Positions 3,542-50,488 of a stretch of 64,000 bases of DNA are shown here, in pieces. The DNA comes from Nitrospira lenta (GTDB lineage: Bacteria > Nitrospirota > Nitrospiria > Nitrospirales > Nitrospiraceae): positions 1 through 64,000 of the forward strand of contig CAMDPZ010000003.1 in the NCBI GenBank assembly GCA_945905765.1, in the 5' to 3' direction. The position numbers and the translations under genes are program-made. The notes beneath the pieces are model-generated. The model saw only the letters and a list, made by a program, of their open reading frames with translations, had not been told where the DNA came from and did not search any database. The first letter of the stretch is position 1; each line of letters begins with the position of its first letter.

Positions 3542-3665
3542 TAGGCTGCTGAAAAAGCCTGCCAGCATCGTTCTCGCCTTGAACGCATCCTCAACGTAGC
3601 CAGGGGCTTCGCCTCCGGTGTGTTCATCGGCTGCGGCCTTGCTGGCAGACTTTTTGAGCAGCCTA
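3542..3665 (+). repeat. Intergenic palindromic repeat, copy R2 (best-preserved ends)
   Basis: TAGGCTGCTGAAAAAGCCTGCCAGC at left versus GCTGGCAGACTTTTTGAGCAGCCTA at right: 25-bp inverted repeat with 2 mismatches. Confidence 0.9.
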
Positions 3666-12513: not shown

Positions 12514-12634
12514 GCTGCTGAAACAGACGCGCCAGCTTCGTTCTCGCATCGTTCAGACCCTCAACGTACCCCTGAGGGTACGCCTCGGGCCTTCACTCGC
12601 TGCGGCCTTGCTGGACGGCCTTTTTGAGCATCCT
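12511..12634 (+). repeat. Intergenic palindromic repeat, copy R3
   Basis: TAGGCTGCTGAAAC..CGCCAGCTTCGTTCTCGC..CTCAACGTACCCCTGAGGGTACGCCTCGGG..CTGCGGCCTTGCTGGACGGCCTTTTTGAGCATCCT; first 3 bases are the stop codon of the preceding gene. Confidence 0.88.
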
Positions 12635-36835: not shown

Positions 36836-36889
36836 GCACCCGCAACTCATCCTCGCCAATTCCCCAGCCCACGAGGGAATCTCGGTCAA

Positions 36890-37146
36890 CGATCCTGGGA
36901 GGTCTTCTGGCTCATGGTTCACTCTACTCCCCGCGCCTTCCCAGGATTGCGTGATGAGTGATGCGTTAGGGGTGATGGGTACAAGGCAGCTACGTAGCCG
37001 CGCGCGACTCATCACTCGTCACTCATCACCGATCACTGCATCCCAGTGGCATCTACGGGTTTCGTCCCCATTTACAGCGGCGGGACCGCGAGGGACTTGC
37101 ACCCTCTTCCCTGACCCAGGAATCACAATGTGCAGGCACTCTAGGA
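36890..37146 (-). promoter_or_regulatory. Cobalamin riboswitch upstream of btuF-btuC-btuD
   Basis: Reverse strand GGGAAGAGGGTGCAAGTCCCTCGCGGTCCCGCCGCTGTAAATGGGGACGAAACCCGTAGATGCCACTGGGATGC..GGGAAGGCGCGG..GAGCCAGAAGACCTCCCAGG. Confidence 0.92.
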
Positions 37147-37771: not shown

Positions 37772-37893
37772 GCCTGTCCCAAAAGTCCGCCAGCTTCGTT
37801 CTCGCCTCGACAGCATCCTCAACGTAGCCTAAAGGCTACGCCTCCGGTGCCGTCATCGGCTGCGGCCTTGCTGGACAGCCTTTTGAAACAGGC
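37772..37893 (+). repeat. Intergenic palindromic repeat, copy R5
   Basis: GCCTGTCCCAAAAGTCCGCCAGCTTCGTTCTCGCCTCGACAGCATCCTCAACGTAGCCTAAAGGCTACGCCTCCGG..GGCTGCGGCCTTGCTGGACAGCCTTTTGAAACAGGC. Confidence 0.88.
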
Positions 37894-37954
37894 TCCAGAT
37901 TCACCCGAACTACCTCAGATTTTACCCAACCCAATATTTTTTGGTCGGCCTCTG

Positions 37955-38405: not shown

Positions 38406-38453
38406 TTGGAGCGGGCGAGGGGATTTGAACCCCTGACAACTTGCTTGGGAAGC
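38406..38453. repeat. Left attachment repeat: 48-bp duplication of the 3' half of tRNA-Gly(CCC)
   Basis: ttggagcgggcgaggggatttgaacccctgacaacttgcttgggaagc identical to 45976-46023. Confidence 0.95.
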
Positions 38454-38785
38454 GCATTAGGTAATTTTCCCATGTGATACGCTACGACACAGTAGACCAC
38501 ATCATACACCGGCAGGCTCACGCCCATCAAGGGTTTGGGCCTGCGGTTGTGTCCTGCCGTTGCTTCCCCTCCCCTCCTGTGCTATCCCCTCATCGTGACT
38601 CTTTTCGGACCGGAACCGTGACTGGAACCGTGACGCGTATGGTCTTCGCCATCAGGTGGTTATCCCCGTGCAGGACGTAGCATGCCTTCCAGACCAATAT
38701 GCAGCGGCAGTGCCCTTGCGATAGTCCTGCCCCACCCAAATTGGGCTTTCCTTCATCCCAACAGTAGAACGCTGCCGGAGGGGCT

Positions 38786-39478
38786 ATGACCACGAAGAAG
38801 AAAATTTTGGATAGTGAAATTGCCACAAGATTTAATATAGGCGATGAAGAATTTAACCCGTTTTCCTTAGAGGGACTGCCAGCCGAAGCGTGGAAAGGTT
38901 TTTGTGTTGTCGCGTGGATGCGATTAGAGCGCAGCAATCCCCGTTGGGCTGAAATAATACTTGATGAGTTTGGGGAGTTCGAGTGGACATGGTGCTCAAA
39001 GGCATTTAGTAAGAAGTACGGCGGAGGTGACGTTGGCGAGAAATGGATGAGGGAAGCATTCCAACACATGCTCCGGACGAAGCCGAAGAAAGGACAGAAA
39101 TCTCTCGATAGGCCTAGGCACCTTTTACAGTACTACACTCAATTCTTGCGTGACATCTCCAGACTCAGGGAAGACAATCCTGGACTTAGGAGTAAGCCGG
39201 GCCATGTGAGAAAAACGTTTTGGAAGGAGAAACTACAAGGCCTTCTCAATCGACATCCATACCATGATGAGACCCGCACGCATGCTCGGGTGACCGCTGA
39301 AATGATTGAAACAGCATGCTCAGCACCTCCTTCCGAAATAGCGTTGGACATGCTCAAACATCTCTACGGCATTAGCCCATCTCGACTGAAGAAAATTATC
39401 TTTCCGAAGCTCAGAACCAGCCCCCTTTCCCCCCTCGAATTATGGCGCGAAAAAATCTTTAAGTCTAACCGCAAGTAG
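38786..39478 (+). CDS. Hypothetical protein (element cargo)
   Basis: 230-aa ORF, MTTKKKILDSEIATRFNIGDEEFNPFSLEGLPAEAWKGFCVVAWMRLERSNPRWAEIILDEFGEFEWTWCSKAF..; lower GC than flanks. Confidence 0.75.
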   Translation: MTTKKKILDSEIATRFNIGDEEFNPFSLEGLPAEAWKGFCVVAWMRLERSNPRWAEIILDEFGEFEWTWCSKAFSKKYGGGDVGEKWMREAFQHMLRTKPKKGQKSLDRPRHLLQYYTQFLRDISRLREDNPGLRSKPGHVRKTFWKEKLQGLLNRHPYHDETRTHARVTAEMIETACSAPPSEIALDMLKHLYGISPSRLKKIIFPKLRTSPLSPLELWREKIFKSNRK

Positions 39479-39590
39479 CTCTCCCAGTTCCACCCATAAC
39501 GGGTCTATGGGTGGAATTGCAGATTTCATATTCCCTGTTACTTTCCATGCTCCAGCACACTGCATTGTGCAGCGTGGAACACGGGGAGGT

Positions 39591-39809
39591 ATGACGATGA
39601 GCGATCAGTGCCTTGTGAGTGTCGATGAAGCAGCACGACAGCTAGGAATGGCAAAGTCGAGCCTGTATCGAATGGCAGTGCTGAATCTGATTCCGTCTTA
39701 CAAAGTCGGGCAGAAGAAGCGCGGAGTAAGGTTTTCGATGCCTGAAGTCCTGGCGGCGCTACGGCGACCACTAGCTGACGAGTTGACGCAGCAGGCTGTG
39801 ACGAAATGA
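39591..39809 (+). CDS. HTH DNA-binding protein, excisionase/AlpA-like
   Basis: MTMSDQCLVSVDEAARQLGMAKSSLYRMAVLNLIPSYKVGQKKRGVRFSMPEVLAALRRP; winged-HTH excisionase pattern. Confidence 0.8.
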   Translation: MTMSDQCLVSVDEAARQLGMAKSSLYRMAVLNLIPSYKVGQKKRGVRFSMPEVLAALRRPLADELTQQAVTK

Positions 39810-41656
39810 CAGGAACCCGACTGGAGGCCTTCCGCCAGGCAGCGGAGAGGGACGCGCTGGCATTGCCGGAGAACATTGTGCCGGGTCGAATCGTTCGATT
39901 CCCTGGTATCGGAAAATCTCACGGCAACAAATCCGGCTGGGCCTGGATATCGGAGGACGGACAAGGCGGTGCCTATGGCGATTGGGCCAGCGGGCTGTCG
40001 GAGACCTGGTACGCACAACACGATCACGCCATGACGGCAGCAGAGCGGGCCGCACACACGCGGCGAGTTGCTGAACTCCGGCGTATTCGCGAAGAGGAAG
40101 AAGCCAAGCAGCATGCGGAAGCCGCACAGAGGGCACAAGCGATCTTGGACGCGGCGCCAGCGGCACCGGCAGACCATCCCTACCTCACGAAAAAGCAGAT
40201 CCAACCTCACGGCCTGCGAGTCGATAACGAGAATCGTCTGATCGTGCCGGTGATGATCGGCGGCATCCTATGCAGCCTGCAATTCATCTCTCCAGATCCA
40301 GACGTCCCGAAGAAGTTCCTTCCTGGGGGGCAGGTCAAAGGCGGCTCCTGCCTTATCGGTGATCTGACCGAGGCCGATACCATTCTTGTATCCGAAGGCT
40401 TTGCGACCGGCGCGAGCTTGCACGAGGCCACTGGCCTTCCGGTCGTGGTGGCCTTTTCTGCGAACATCTTGACACTCGTAGCCGAACAACTGCGGCGACA
40501 GTATCCGACGGCCATGATCGTTCTATGCGGTGACAACGATCTGACCGGCACCGGGCAGCAAGCGGCCCAGAAGGCAGCGGAGGCGATCGGCGGCTTGACA
40601 TGCCTTCCCGAAACGGAGGGCCACGACTTTAACGATCTGCACACAAGGCAAGGCCTCGATGCCGTGAAAATGGCGATTGAGGGGGCAATAAAAAAGGCAC
40701 AGGAGAATCAGGCGATGATAGATGTAGACGAGGCTCCCCAGAAGGTGGCGCGCGATCTCTCGACGGCACTAGTCAGTTACACCGACCTCCTCTCGCTCGA
40801 AATTCCCGAACGCCCCCGCTACCTGCCGTGGCTCCCGGAGGGTGGCAACGTCATGGCCTATGGCCCTCGCGGCGTCGGCAAGACGTTCTTTCAACTGGCG
40901 ATTGCGACAAGTCTCACGACAGGCAAACCCCTCTGGAAGTGGGACTGTACCAAGCCCGTAGGGGTCCTCTATGTCGATGGCGAGATGCAGCTCGATGAGC
41001 TGAGGCAGCGGACTACGGCCTTGATGGAGACGCCTCCAATTGCGCCGTTGGAGTTTCTTACCGGGCAACTCGTCTATCAACGATGCGGCGGTAAGGACCT
41101 CATCTTGACCTCAGACGCCATGCGGCAAGAGGTGGTCAAGATCCTCGATGCTCGTCCTGAAATTCGCGTGATGATCCTCGACAATATCTCCTGTCTGTTC
41201 AGTGGGATTAACGAAGATTCAAAACAGGATTGGGAACCGATCAATGCCTGGCTGATTCGCCTACGGCACCGGGGGCTGGCGACCATCCTTGTCCACCATG
41301 CGGGGAAAGGCGGGCAGCAACGAGGAACCAGCGGACGAGAAGATTCATTAGATACGGTGATTCAACTGGCGAAGCCAACGGGCGGCGATGCGCGGGAAGG
41401 GTGTCACTTTGAATTAAGCTTCACCAAATGCCGAAGTGTCACGGGCGATGACGTAGGGCCGCTCGATGTGCGCCTCAATACCGTCAATGACCGGCTGCAA
41501 TGGTCCTGGGTACCAATGGAGGTGTCCACCTTAGATAAAGCCCGCAAGCTCGTCGCTGAAGGGGTGAATGGGCCTACCGAATTGAGCGAGGAATTAGGGA
41601 TCAATAAAGGCTATGCCTCACGGATCTTAAAGAAGCTCAGAGCGGAGGTTGCATGA
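39806..41656 (+). CDS. Toprim primase-like / RepA-type AAA ATPase fusion (replication protein)
   Basis: Toprim-like ADTILVSEGFATGASLHEATGLPVVVAFSANIL..AMIVLCGDND; Walker A GNVMAYGPRGVGKTFFQLAIA; VGVLYVDGEM; VMILDNISCLFSG; ATILVHHAGKGGQQRGTSGREDSLDTVI. Confidence 0.88.
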   Translation: MTGTRLEAFRQAAERDALALPENIVPGRIVRFPGIGKSHGNKSGWAWISEDGQGGAYGDWASGLSETWYAQHDHAMTAAERAAHTRRVAELRRIREEEEAKQHAEAAQRAQAILDAAPAAPADHPYLTKKQIQPHGLRVDNENRLIVPVMIGGILCSLQFISPDPDVPKKFLPGGQVKGGSCLIGDLTEADTILVSEGFATGASLHEATGLPVVVAFSANILTLVAEQLRRQYPTAMIVLCGDNDLTGTGQQAAQKAAEAIGGLTCLPETEGHDFNDLHTRQGLDAVKMAIEGAIKKAQENQAMIDVDEAPQKVARDLSTALVSYTDLLSLEIPERPRYLPWLPEGGNVMAYGPRGVGKTFFQLAIATSLTTGKPLWKWDCTKPVGVLYVDGEMQLDELRQRTTALMETPPIAPLEFLTGQLVYQRCGGKDLILTSDAMRQEVVKILDARPEIRVMILDNISCLFSGINEDSKQDWEPINAWLIRLRHRGLATILVHHAGKGGQQRGTSGREDSLDTVIQLAKPTGGDAREGCHFELSFTKCRSVTGDDVGPLDVRLNTVNDRLQWSWVPMEVSTLDKARKLVAEGVNGPTELSEELGINKGYASRILKKLRAEVA

Positions 41657-41845
41657 TTGGGTTGCCTGGGGGTTGCCTGCAAAGTTGCCGGTGCATCCAA
41701 AAGGTTGCCTGTTTCCCGTGTGCAGAATCTCACAAAGAATTTAGGCAACATTCGGAGAAACCATGTGCCAACACTGGAGTTGCAGGGTTGCTAACCGTGG
41801 CAACATTTCCAGGCCAGGCAACATTGAGTTGCCTAGAGAGTTGCC
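41648..41845. repeat. Iteron-like cluster of GTTGCC/GGCAAC motifs (candidate element replication origin)
   Basis: GTTGCC at 41661, 41672, 41684, 41704, 41828, 41840 and GGCAAC at 41744, 41799, 41817; hairpin AGGCAACattgaGTTGCCT at 41816-41834. Confidence 0.6.
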
Positions 41846-41864
41846 AGCCAAAAGGGGGCGCACG

Positions 41865-42197
41865 ATGAGCTCGACCGCGGTAGGACATTGCCCAAACTGT
41901 GCCGCGATGATTAATCGCCACTGGCAGGAGTGCCTCGTCTGTCACACCAGCATCGCGCATACGACCGAGACAGGATGCACCGGCCTGGGCGGCTCCCCCT
42001 CCACGATTCAACACGGCTCCCTGATCGCCTGGACGCGAGCAGGGCAGGTGCAGGTCGGTACGGTGGATTTTATCTATGTCGATGCGGAGGGGGCGACGTG
42101 GGCCTTCACCGTTGGGAAGGACTGGTCGGCGCTCAATACCAAGTTCGTGCGGTTAGCGACGAATGAGGATTTGACGGACCAGGCTTCGACGCCGTAA
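41865..42197 (+). CDS. Small zinc-ribbon protein (element cargo)
   Basis: MSSTAVGHCPNCAAMINRHWQECLVCHTSIAHTTE..; CPxC..CLVC motif. Confidence 0.65.
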   Translation: MSSTAVGHCPNCAAMINRHWQECLVCHTSIAHTTETGCTGLGGSPSTIQHGSLIAWTRAGQVQVGTVDFIYVDAEGATWAFTVGKDWSALNTKFVRLATNEDLTDQASTP

Positions 42198-42612
42198 AGA
42201 AGGTGAGGGGCTGGGTACGATAACGTCCGGCATATCCTCTCAGCGGGTTATGGACCAGCCAAGAGAGCTAAGCCCGTGTGGCCCTCCTGACCTCTCGCAC
42301 CCCCTGTGGTCTGTCTAGTCCCCTCGCCTGGTGAGTCCGGGAGGTGCGTAGAGGGAGCTGTGCAGGGTGAAATCGTGAGAGGGCGTGGGTGACAGGTCGC
42401 GTACCCTCGCCGCTCATCATTACCGCCCTTACCGTGTTCCCCTCATGCCGAGGCATACCCAGGCCTCTCGATCCCACTCCCGCATACGACCTGAGATGCC
42501 TACGTTGCCGTAGGGACGCTCAAGTCTCTATCTTGTCACCGTACCCGTTCGGTGCTTGCGCCCTCATCGCACCCCGCCTACAATGAACCTTCAATTTCCC
42601 TGCGAGGCCCCT

Positions 42613-43317
42613 ATGTACTGCCGTGCTCCCTTCCAAAGTCTACTATTCTGTTTTCTAATTCTCTCTCTTGTGGGGTGCGACCAGAATTCTCAACGGGAGG
42701 CACGCGAACTTCCAAAAGAGGGTCGGAAGGAAGCCGCGAAGGAGTTGGAAGAACGGAGAAATCAGGTGTTCATGGAATTCGAGAAAAAGTATAACGCAGA
42801 TGGCAGTTGGCAAGGGTCATTCAAGCGCAATCCCGTATGGACTATGGAAGTGCAGGATCGGCTGATTCCACCAGACGGACGCCCTATTCTATCAAGTGGG
42901 TCATTGTATGATGTGACGCGCAAGGGTGATGAGTACAGGCTTCACTTTCGGAAAGGGTATTTGCAAGGGACTCTTGAGAAATATAGATTGGGCGTTGTTG
43001 ATATAGATTTTGTCTTCAATTGTAGCTTGCCCGAAGACAAGAGAGCTGAAGCGAAGAGCTTTGGTGATCAAATCACTGCACGTACCATCGGGACGCTTCA
43101 CGACGACTATGTCTTTGTGGCCAAGATAAAAGCGGTAGAGCGACGCGACAAACTAATCGGAAAGGTCGCGGTTGATAATTTCCCGCACTTTATTGCCACG
43201 GGGGAATGCCTGGCGGTGAAATATATCGGTGAGAGCCAAAACGCCTCATCGAAGAGTTCCGTGCTCCATCGCCCAGGTGAGACCCCCGAGCAGTACCTCA
43301 ACCGAATAAACCATTGA
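42613..43317 (+). CDS. Hypothetical lipoprotein (element cargo)
   Basis: MYCRAPFQSLLFCFLILSLVGCDQNSQREA.. lipobox LSLVGC. Confidence 0.7.
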   Translation: MYCRAPFQSLLFCFLILSLVGCDQNSQREARELPKEGRKEAAKELEERRNQVFMEFEKKYNADGSWQGSFKRNPVWTMEVQDRLIPPDGRPILSSGSLYDVTRKGDEYRLHFRKGYLQGTLEKYRLGVVDIDFVFNCSLPEDKRAEAKSFGDQITARTIGTLHDDYVFVAKIKAVERRDKLIGKVAVDNFPHFIATGECLAVKYIGESQNASSKSSVLHRPGETPEQYLNRINH

Positions 43318-43644
43318 ATTGGGAGGCAGACAGTTCGGGGTGGAGTTTCTGCAAGTGCCGGATGAGGAGCGAGTCCGCTTACAATAGTATCTATCGAAGT
43401 TTCCCGCGTCACAGAATTAGATGTGGGCATGGAACCCCACAAGGCCGACACGCCACCCCTAAGCATGACCGCACCACTCCCCCCACTCCCTCAACCTTGA
43501 CACCTTCCCACGGATAGCCTAGCTTTGCGGCGAAACGGCTGGCGACGGCGTATCAACCCTCTCACAATCCGACTAGTCTACCTGGGCATATTCCGTGGTT
43601 AGGCTAAATAATTTGCAGATCTGAGAAATATCAAAGGGGAAGAA

Positions 43645-44031
43645 ATGAGCAAATTGATCACGTGTATTGCCGGTATGGCTTTGCTGCTCTTGGTCGGTTG
43701 TGCCCAACGGCACTATTTAAAAAGTAACTTGAATCAGATTGCGCTTGGCCAAACCAAAGGAACCGTCTTGTCAAAGTTTCCTGGGGAGCGGTCTGTATGG
43801 GGCGGGGGTGCCCCTGGCATGGAGATACGTGCCGCACACCGCTCCAGCACCGGTAAGCTGCTGGAGGTTGGCGAAGTGTGGCTCACGGACGGAGTAACAC
43901 CCACGGTTTTGCATTGGTTCATGTTTGAGGACGGAATCCTCGTGCAGTGGGGGCGTCCCGAAGACTGGAACAAAGCCGCAGCGCGGTACGACATTATCGT
44001 TAATCCATCGCCCGGCGTTCCCCAAAACTAA
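43645..44031 (+). CDS. Hypothetical lipoprotein (element cargo)
   Basis: MSKLITCIAGMALLLLVGCAQRHYLKSNLNQIALGQTKGTVLSKFPG; lipobox LLLVGC, SmpA/OmlA-like turn pattern. Confidence 0.7.
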   Translation: MSKLITCIAGMALLLLVGCAQRHYLKSNLNQIALGQTKGTVLSKFPGERSVWGGGAPGMEIRAAHRSSTGKLLEVGEVWLTDGVTPTVLHWFMFEDGILVQWGRPEDWNKAAARYDIIVNPSPGVPQN

Positions 44032-44246
44032 CAGTGGACTTGGCAGATTGATACGAACATTTCGTCTCGACGCGCACGAAAGGGCCAAGTTTTAGAAATC
44101 CCCCAAAACTCGTGCGCCGGGTGAAGGTCTAGACGCACATCTCGCCTTGCCTGTTTTTCCCCCTCCCCCCCCATGTTATTTTTGCCGGAGGTGACGAGCG
44201 CGTAAGCGAGGTCACGGTTCTATCCACAGTTCTGAATCTGACACAG

Positions 44247-44273
44247 CCACACTCCCTCATCATGCGGGAGTGG
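44247..44273. terminator. Hairpin, possible terminator
   Basis: CCACACTCCCtcatcatgcGGGAGTGGcg: CACTCCC/GGGAGTG stem. Confidence 0.4.
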
Positions 44274-44336
44274 CGAGACACAGCACTAGCAGCAAGGCGT
44301 AGACGGTTGGGCGGACAGTCTGCGACCTCAGCATGA

Positions 44337-44537
44337 TCACTTCCCCTTCGGCAGACTCAAGGTAATCCCCTTACGCTCCAATTCCTTCAGGTGAGTTTCG
44401 AGCACAGTCAGGATGTAGTCTTTCATCGGGGTCCGGTGAAGGGATGCGGCGACTTTCAACTTCTCAGCCACGTCAAGGGGAAGGTCGCGGAGGAGGAAAT
44501 CGCGGGTGGTCTGATTCGTTTTCGGCTTCGTCATAGG
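44337..44537 (-). CDS. Ribbon-helix-helix-type small DNA-binding protein
   Basis: MTKPKTNQTTRDFLLRDLPLDVAEKLKVAASLHRTPMKDYILTVLETHLKELERKG; Arc/CopG-like pattern. Confidence 0.65.
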   Translation of the reverse strand, partial: PMTKPKTNQTTRDFLLRDLPLDVAEKLKVAASLHRTPMKDYILTVLETHLKELERKGITLSLPKGK

Positions 44538-44561
44538 CCGGGAGTGTAGCAGAGCGTCCAC

Positions 44562-44610
44562 TTGACATCAAATGATATATAGGCATATCATGATATCATA
44601 TAGTATCAAT
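44562..44610. promoter_or_regulatory. Palindromic operator/promoter between divergent RHH genes
   Basis: ATATCATGATAT perfect 12-bp palindrome at 44585-44596, overlapping ATGATATCAT (44590-44599); plus-strand TTGACA (44562-44567) about 18 bp before TATCAT. Confidence 0.6.
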
Positions 44611-44627
44611 GAGAGGAGGTGACGGGG

Positions 44628-44783
44628 ATGAAGATGATTCGGTTATTGATCCAAGTGCCGGAGCCGGTCAAGGCGAGGTTGGACGGCTTGCGAGAGCAGG
44701 GCACCACGGCCAGCGGGTTTATTCGGTACTTGCTGGAGGAACATTTTAAGCAGGCCCCCGTGATGGGCCGGAAAGGACGGTGA
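44628..44783 (+). CDS. 51-aa ribbon-helix-helix-like protein, not in supplied ORF track
   Basis: GGAGGTGACGGGG RBS then MKMIRLLIQVPEPVKARLDGLREQGTTASGFIRYLLEEHFKQAPVMGRKGR*. Confidence 0.7.
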   Translation: MKMIRLLIQVPEPVKARLDGLREQGTTASGFIRYLLEEHFKQAPVMGRKGR

Positions 44784-44786
44784 GCG

Positions 44787-45998
44787 ATGGCGCGAGCAGG
44801 AAGAAAGGATCGGGGCTTGCTGGCGAGGAAAGATTCGACCGGCAAGACGGTATGGCATGTGCGGCTCTATCACGACGGGAAGGAACGGCGGTTCGGGGCT
44901 TTCAATAACAAGACGGAAGCCCGAGACTTTTACGAGAAGGCGAAACAGGAACAGAAGCAAGGGCGCTTCTTTCCCGAACGCTATCGGCACGGCGGGAGAG
45001 AGGCCGCTGCGGCGGTGATTGCGAGCTATCTGCTGACCCTCCCGACCAGTGGCAAGACGCCTTCGACCATCGCCGTGGAGAAGTACTATGGGCAATGGTG
45101 GACTGATCGCCTGATTGGGAAGGCCCTGCACGCCGTGACCCCTGCCCTGCTTGACCAGGCGATGGCAGACTTGAGCACGGCAAAGAAAACCCCTCAAACC
45201 ATCCTGCATTACATGAAGTTTCTCCGGCATGTATTCCGATGGGCCATCGGGAGAGGGGTGATTGAGAAAAGCCCCTTTGCCAGCGTGAAGCTCCCCACGG
45301 TGCGAGCGGGGAAAACACGATTCCTCTCGATTGAGGAGGAGGCGCAGCTGTGCAAGGCGGTAGGTCAACCCTATGACCGTTGGATTCGGCTGGCGATTCT
45401 CACGGGCATGAGAAAGTCTGAGCAGTTTGGCTTGCGATGGGCCGACATTGACCTCGAACGGGGCTTGATTACCCTCCCCCACACCAAGTCGGGAACCGTC
45501 CAATATGTGCACCTGACAGAAGAAGCCAAGGCGATCCTGGGCGGCCTCATCGCTGGCAATACGTCGGTCTGGGTGTTTCCGAGTGAGAACCCCGACACAC
45601 ACCTGGACCATCATAACTTCTACTATCGGGTCTATCAGCCCGCCATTGTGACCGCGAAGCTCCCTGGCGTGACCTGGCACACCTTGCGTCATACGTTCGC
45701 CTCACGGCTTGCGATGAACGGCCAAGCCCCTAGCACCATCGCGGCCTTGCTACGGCACAGTGGAACGGACTTAGTGGCGCGGTATGCCCACCTCAGCCCT
45801 ACCCACCTGCAAGGGGCGCTGGAGGGAGTCTCAGGGTTTGGGAAGGGAACGATCAAGAAGACGCAGATCGTGACGGAATCGAGGGGCGAGGAGGAGAATT
45901 CAAACCCAACCGTGACGGGAACCGGAACCGAGCAGGAGAGGCCGCACGATGAAGAGACACAAGCGGTTGAAAGTATTGGAGCGGGCGAGGGGATTTGA
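44787..45998 (+). CDS. int: Tyrosine recombinase / integrase
   Basis: LTGMRKSEQFGLRW, HTLRHTFASRLAMNG, LRHSGTDLVARYAHLS: catalytic R..HxLR..H..Y; adjacent to tRNA att site. Confidence 0.95.
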   Translation: MARAGRKDRGLLARKDSTGKTVWHVRLYHDGKERRFGAFNNKTEARDFYEKAKQEQKQGRFFPERYRHGGREAAAAVIASYLLTLPTSGKTPSTIAVEKYYGQWWTDRLIGKALHAVTPALLDQAMADLSTAKKTPQTILHYMKFLRHVFRWAIGRGVIEKSPFASVKLPTVRAGKTRFLSIEEEAQLCKAVGQPYDRWIRLAILTGMRKSEQFGLRWADIDLERGLITLPHTKSGTVQYVHLTEEAKAILGGLIAGNTSVWVFPSENPDTHLDHHNFYYRVYQPAIVTAKLPGVTWHTLRHTFASRLAMNGQAPSTIAALLRHSGTDLVARYAHLSPTHLQGALEGVSGFGKGTIKKTQIVTESRGEEENSNPTVTGTGTEQERPHDEETQAVESIGAGEGI

Positions 45999-46023
45999 AC
46001 CCCTGACAACTTGCTTGGGAAGC
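45976..46023. repeat. Right attachment repeat (within tRNA-Gly)
   Basis: 48 bp identical to 38406-38453. Confidence 0.95.
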
Positions 46024-46051
46024 AAGGACTCTACCACTGAGCTACGCCCGC
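45977..46051 (-). tRNA. tRNA-Gly (anticodon CCC)
   Basis: Reverse strand GCGGGCGTAGCTCAGTGGTAGAGTCCTTGCTTCCCAAGCAAGTTGTCAGGGGTTCAAATCCCCTCGCCCGCTCCA; acceptor GCGGGCG/CGCCCGC, anticodon loop TTCCCAA, encoded CCA. Confidence 0.95.
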
Positions 46052-50367: not shown

Positions 50368-50488
50368 AGGATGCTCAAAAAGTCTGTCAGCAAGGCCGCA
50401 GGCGAGTCGAAACCGGAGGCGTGCCCTCGGGGTACGTTGAGGATTTCGACGAGCCGAGCACGCCGCTGGCGGACTTTTTCAGCATCCT
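50368..50488 (-). repeat. Intergenic palindromic repeat, copy R6
   Basis: AGGATGCTCAAAAAGTCTGTCAGCAAGGCCGCAG..GGTACGTTGAGGAT..GCCGCTGGCGGACTTTTTCAGCATCCT; inverted orientation; ends next to the mtnA stop codon. Confidence 0.88.

Follow-up and report, generated by a model that had tools for sequence, protein, structure and literature searches.

Capsid-forming PICIs and the marine VEIME and tycheposon elements are islands that target tRNA genes with a tyrosine recombinase. These elements are named in PMC11389934 and PMC10803314. Gram-negative PICIs carry an integrase, an AlpA- or MerR-type regulator, a pri-rep gene, an iteron origin and optionally terS, with unidirectional transcription (PMC6092414). 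One of them, PmCI172, carries a capsid homologue, and another, EcCICFT073, is packaged without TerS through a helper cos or pac site; the criteria for this group include a size of about 12–15 kb and an att site never occupied by a prophage (PMC6092414). The minimalist Vibrio satellites called PICMIs are inserted at fis and rely on primases with DUF3987/DUF5906, and the model that describes them accepts PF12728 as AlpA (PMC10803314).

We analysed an element of similar layout in a 64-kb stretch of Nitrospira DNA (hereafter the window), where an insertion of 7.6 kb occupies the 3′ half of a tRNA-Gly(CCC) gene. Its features are the following (window coordinates, with the strand where there is one):

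38406–38453: attL, a 48-bp copy of the 3′ part of tRNA-Gly, 100% identical to 45976–46023 and present as a single copy in the empty site of genome G026
38591–38634 (+): left attachment arm, CATCGTGAC plus two ACCGTGAC sites (38615 and 38627), putative integrase arm-type sites
38786–39478 (+): ORF230, no family match and no homologue
39591–39809 (+): HTH regulator of the AlpA/excisionase type (HTH_17), PF12728 above cut-off and TIGR01764 just below; homologue in 12/12 core elements
39806–41656 (+): Rep, Toprim primase-like plus AAA_25 (RepA-like) helicase; PF13362 (6.6e-14), PF13481 (1.6e-28), phrog_2249 DNA primase (2.4e-69)
41661–41845: putative replication origin, nine GTTGCC/GGCAAC iterons in two groups, the first 5 bp past the Rep stop
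41865–42197 (+): 110-aa protein, modelled with a zinc-ribbon-like N-terminus and a small beta-barrel C-terminus; tblastn match to L038_b (40%, E 3.5e-7)
42613–43317 (+): 234-aa predicted lipoprotein, cargo, lipobox LVGC; homologues in three other Nitrospirota genomes
43645–44031 (+): 128-aa predicted lipoprotein, cargo, lipobox LVGC; no family match
44337–44561 (−): RHH74, divergent ribbon-helix-helix protein, weakly FitA-like; conserved partner in relatives
44619–44783 (+): RHH54, ribbon-helix-helix protein, 3 bp upstream of int
44787–45998 (+): tyrosine integrase, 403 aa, PF00589 (E 1.9e-21), 3′ end and stop codon within att
45909–45916 (+): right-arm ACCGTGAC site within the int 3′ end, putative arm-type site
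45976–46023: attR, the second 48-bp copy, inside the intact tRNA gene
45977–46051 (−): tRNA-Gly(CCC), the integration target (ARAGORN; Rfam RF00005, 69.7 bits)

The two 48-bp direct repeats are identical and the tRNA gene at the right end is intact, as had been claimed in an earlier sequence-only reading of this DNA. An empty tRNA-Gly site, which that reading had proposed to look for in related genomes and on which it had staked its claim beforehand, is present in genome G026 of the same genus (loci L009 and L065; G and L numbers are our labels for genomes and loci). There, the left flank, one 48-bp copy and the right flank follow each other without interruption. The joined window flanks align with G026 in a single block of 1,641 bp at 93.5% identity, and the two window halves overlap in this alignment on precisely the 48 bp, which sets the length of the insertion at 7,570 bp. 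The tyrosyl-tRNA synthetases of G026 and of the window genome are 97% identical at the protein level. The insertion is thus subject to presence/absence variation within the genus.

The integrase reads towards the tRNA, also as claimed earlier: it matches PF00589, its gene runs into the tRNA gene and terminates within the repeat. All catalytic residues are retained (R209, K234, H298, R301 and Y333), and they are invariant across 16 family members, and the named close matches of the protein are from Nitrospira or Nitrospirae MAGs. The 64-kb window contains eight copies of the 8-mer ACCGTGAC (both strands counted), of which four are in the element. In relatives with a known left end, except the distant L113, one to three copies are located about 150–222 bp from this end, and in the members examined, again except L113, one or two copies are found inside int, 141–168 bp from the tRNA 5′ end. 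The left copies fall in non-coding DNA, so their recurrence cannot be put down to gene homology alone. These sites look like integrase arm-type sites, and their preservation suggests that both recombination ends of the window copy are intact.

The excisionase-like HTH protein and the Toprim-AAA primase/helicase announced by the sequence-only reading were recovered by profile searches (HTH_17 in the former, Toprim_3 and AAA_25 in the latter). The Rep start overlaps the stop of the HTH gene. No solved-structure match was found for Rep, and a scan of viral contigs with this protein returned a single match, 29% identical. The iterons that follow Rep amount to nine copies of GTTGCC per 185 bp, versus about 0.1 expected; the region between the two groups is just modestly AT-rich (56–60%). 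Analogous arrays are located at the Rep 3′ end in relatives (CGCTACA in L038, GTCGGTA in L044 and GGAACAAGAA in L107), and the scan of the Rep 3′ ends gave no clear array in L043, L099 and L104. Rep proteins of different types are present in the family: Toprim-AAA_25, DUF3987 with an NrS-1-type domain, and DUF3854/DUF927. Both Rep type and iteron sequence thus vary from member to member.

Gene calls were made with a simple script. ORF230 has no homologue in the 395 other Nitrospirota genomes, and its single-sequence structure model is uninformative (pLDDT 42). The C-terminal part of the 110-aa protein is modelled with a pLDDT of about 87; the fold matches in PDB were just weakly SH3/Tudor-like (E above 0.04) and we did not adopt them as a fold identity. 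RHH54 is 72–87% identical in six relatives, a conservation that exceeds that of int. Lipobox ORFs are found only in the window element, L044, L099 and L142, and we discarded the idea that all cargo of the family consists of lipoproteins. Defence genes form part of the cargo in two larger relatives: L112 has a type III restriction-modification system and a SNF2 helicase, and L104 an HKD/SNF2 helicase. PADLOC gave weak mad1/mad8 matches to the window proteins through HTH and AAA, which were rejected as generic. Profile searches with the nine window proteins returned no significant match to virion (capsid), terminase, relaxase or conjugation families, in agreement with the earlier reading.

The integrase family is present in 23 of 396 Nitrospirota genomes, from 12 genera (E 1e-60 or better); the relatives are mostly MAGs, with some loci cut by contig ends. 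Twelve core elements, the window element and eleven relatives, share a skeleton composed of AlpA-type HTH, Rep, RHH pair and integrase. The AlpA-type HTH, RHH54 and Int are common to all of them, and RHH74 was detected in 11 of the 12. The core elements target tRNA-Gly, -Pro, -Arg and -Thr. Those delimited by repeats measure 6.7 to 16.7 kb (L105, L098/L040, L038, L099 and L104), the repeats of L101 and L107 being shorter or less certain. More distant integrases are located in tRNA-Met (L112), tRNA-Cys (L115) and tRNA-Gly (L113). The window integrase is sister to that of L038 (79% identical). As L038 occupies tRNA-Pro, even close relatives differ in their target tRNA. This family is previously undescribed, and the arm sites, the iteron origin and the twelve-element skeleton are new; the sequence-only reading had mentioned neither this origin nor the arm sites, nor the RHH pair. 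The mobility of the window element and its membership of the family are well supported.

Terminase small subunits (TerS) are encoded by at least four members, at a fixed place after Rep, with a small gene between. Those of L040 and L043 match Terminase_2 (PF03592) above the Pfam cut-off, whereas those of L038 and L107 match phrog_2538 (3.1e-5) and phrog_83 (1.1e-29), respectively; L103 and L105 encode proteins resembling the L038 TerS. L107 also carries an HK97-type capsid gene (phrog_10, 6.1e-64). Its capsid and TerS are 52% and 44% identical, respectively, to proteins of a prophage in the same-genus genome G029 that encodes TerS, TerL, portal, Clp-type protease and capsid, and the simplest reading of these similarities is that a satellite took packaging genes from a Nitrospira phage. 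No full capsid/portal set was found in the relatives examined. The C-terminal domain of the 110-aa window protein recurs in the product of the L038 gene located between Rep and TerS (40%, E 3.5e-7), and the window element therefore matches the L038 layout, minus TerS. A stretch of 415 bp separates the stop of the 110-aa gene from the first lipoprotein gene, and no TerS or TerS remnant was detected above noise in the window copy. The element's own genome, which is incomplete, gave no match to the portal family PF04860, and no helper was identified. The longest cos-like word common to the element and L141, the one available prophage, has 15 bp, within the null, and was set aside. The genome of the window element also harbours an 11.1-kb element at tRNA-Ser(CGA) (G000:C43, L062:31-11197), where 46 bp from the 5′ half of the tRNA are repeated. 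This element encodes TerL, a prohead protease and a replication protein; no portal or capsid was found in it. Its TerL-protease cassette has a counterpart, 96% identical in DNA, in G025 (L142), where the neighbouring genes are a serine recombinase and an RHH pair.

The window int is 88% identical in DNA to that of G202, from another genus of the same family and located at the same kind of tRNA, whereas the tyrS-lpd regions of these two genomes are just 71–74% identical. From this comparison, the integration module was probably transferred between genera more recently than the hosts diverged. In G009 (L058 13291-19901), phage tape-measure and tail-fibre-like genes adjoin RHH-RHH and a truncated int at tRNA-Gly, in a MAG locus that looks broken. 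This locus could possibly be a prophage using the same RHH-RHH-int module, so that the site may not be prophage-free. The same tRNA-Gly site in G030 (L057) contains an 8.3-kb metabolic-looking island (by eye, a membrane transporter, a decarboxylase and an ATP-grasp-like gene) with a leftover integrase 3′ end, which makes the site a hotspot. Two further features of the window lie outside the element: a cobalamin riboswitch (36880–37135, −) upstream of a BtuF-like gene, and a dispersed repeat of about 104 bp at 37781–37900. The latter has copies at 3553–3654, 12530–12624 and 50378–50478 (81–86% identical), several per 64 kb, and occurs in other Nitrospira loci too; its minus strand folds unusually well (z −3.2) and matches no Rfam family at gathering score.

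We consider that the element is probably a PICI-like phage satellite in integrated form, one of a Nitrospirota family of such islands, because several relatives carry TerS and one a capsid gene, and because the window proteins gave no relaxase match. Judging from the packaging genes of its relatives, it is most likely a small parasite travelling in bacterial-virus particles, and we infer packaging of the window copy by a helper phage. Several points count against this reading: the element, with 7.6 kb, is below 12–15 kb, it has no recognisable TerS, no helper was identified, and the orientation of the RHH74 gene breaks strict unidirectionality. The absence of TerS where relatives have it, together with the 415-bp gap before the first lipoprotein gene, would also fit a satellite whose packaging gene is gone but which can still excise and replicate, is only rarely transferred and now serves mainly to carry the two lipoprotein genes. 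We regard such a loss as unlikely, since the identical att copies, the intact int and arm sites, the intact Rep frame and the iterons argue for recent activity, and TerS-less PICIs using cos are known (PMC6092414).

The sequence-only reading had proposed a satellite or an integrative mobilisable element (IME), in a lineage for which few mobile elements have been described. This general category is upheld by the empty site in G026. The relatives favour the satellite, and the IME gained no positive support. As an IME, the island would be plasmid-like, with an iteron Rep, and once excised would be mobilised through a cryptic oriT by a conjugative element. Rep and iterons are plasmid-like too, and Toprim relatives occur on plasmids, but the nine window proteins lack any relaxase or conjugation family match, terminase and capsid genes occupy a fixed place in relatives, and a search of the window DNA against plasmids gave no match; this makes mobilisation by conjugation distinctly improbable. 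A phage-like Rep and the RHH-RHH-int fragment beside tail genes in G009 would be expected from the remnant of an ordinary prophage with its structural genes lost. Twelve elements nevertheless share a compact skeleton at several tRNA genes, several of them exactly delimited, and independent decay to the same layout is unlikely; the Reps are varied, yet no full virion set was found in the family. We therefore give an origin by prophage decay very little credence.

If the element is a PICI-like satellite, a helper phage, or relief of RHH/HTH control, would induce the HTH protein, and Int, with HTH and/or RHH, would excise the element between the att cores. Rep would then melt and prime the DNA at the GTTGCC iterons, amplifying the circle, and the terminase and virions of the helper would take it up by way of a cos or pac site of the helper type, required because the window copy has no TerS, unless this copy has lost its packaging gene and with it transfer. 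In a new cell, integration would proceed through the same reaction. The two lipoproteins would be cargo, possibly altering phage adsorption.

The RHH pair is also found with a serine recombinase (L142), with another integrase (L062) and with phage tail genes (L058), and these varied partners are our reason for viewing it as a possible recombinase-independent switch. We tentatively put forward, as an idea somewhat more likely to fail than to hold, that the family forms a satellite lineage of its own within Nitrospirota. Its hallmark would be the integration module (RHH pair, integrase and arm sites, with int ending inside the target tRNA), onto which different replicons, with their own iterons, and different packaging genes would be swapped. 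Such mixing and matching around a shared integration module, if true, would show how satellites arise. Nitrospira are nitrite oxidisers, some of which also oxidise ammonia, and are hard to culture. Our literature search returned no paper that uses the term phage satellite together with Nitrospira or Nitrospirota. With defined boundaries, att sites, an origin and, in the same genus, a prophage of the helper type, the family allows phage-satellite transfer in Nitrospirota to be tested directly.

P4-like satellites, like the window element, have an integrase by a tRNA gene, an AlpA-like regulator and an iteron-driven replication protein. The domains of the window Rep differ from those of P4 alpha, and no P4 helper-exploitation genes were found in the window element. 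P4, to whose relatives the sequence-only reading had likened the layout, is not the closest model; the TerS and capsid of the Nitrospirota relatives point to PICI-like elements. The window element resembles PICMIs by its small size, its integrase, AlpA and primase, a short gene in tight linkage with int and the lack of capsid genes (PMC10803314); we rejected this identity, the site being tRNA-Gly and the Rep Toprim_3/AAA_25. Some Nitrospirota relatives, with TerS and in one case a capsid gene too, recall capsid-forming PICIs, VEIMEs and tycheposons, unlike the window copy, which has no packaging or capsid gene.

The window element shares with Gram-negative PICIs (EcCICFT073, PmCI172) the integrase, the AlpA-type HTH, a primase/replicase followed by an iteron origin, a specific att, mostly one-directional genes and the absence of virion genes, TerS being optional; L107, with its capsid gene, parallels PmCI172. 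It differs from them by its Toprim-AAA_25 Rep, the RHH-RHH pair at int, an int at the far end that reads into the tRNA with its stop inside att, its size (7.6 kb versus 12–15 kb) and its phylum. The gene organisation expected of a PICI is present (integrase, replication module and master regulator, the last from HTH_17 homology), as is an iteron origin next to pri-rep. We do not file the element as a PICI, because its 7.57 kb falls short of the size range and the tail genes at the G009 locus cloud the status of the att site. As far as can be judged from sequence, it would work like a Gram-negative PICI in organisation, origin and optional TerS and capsid.
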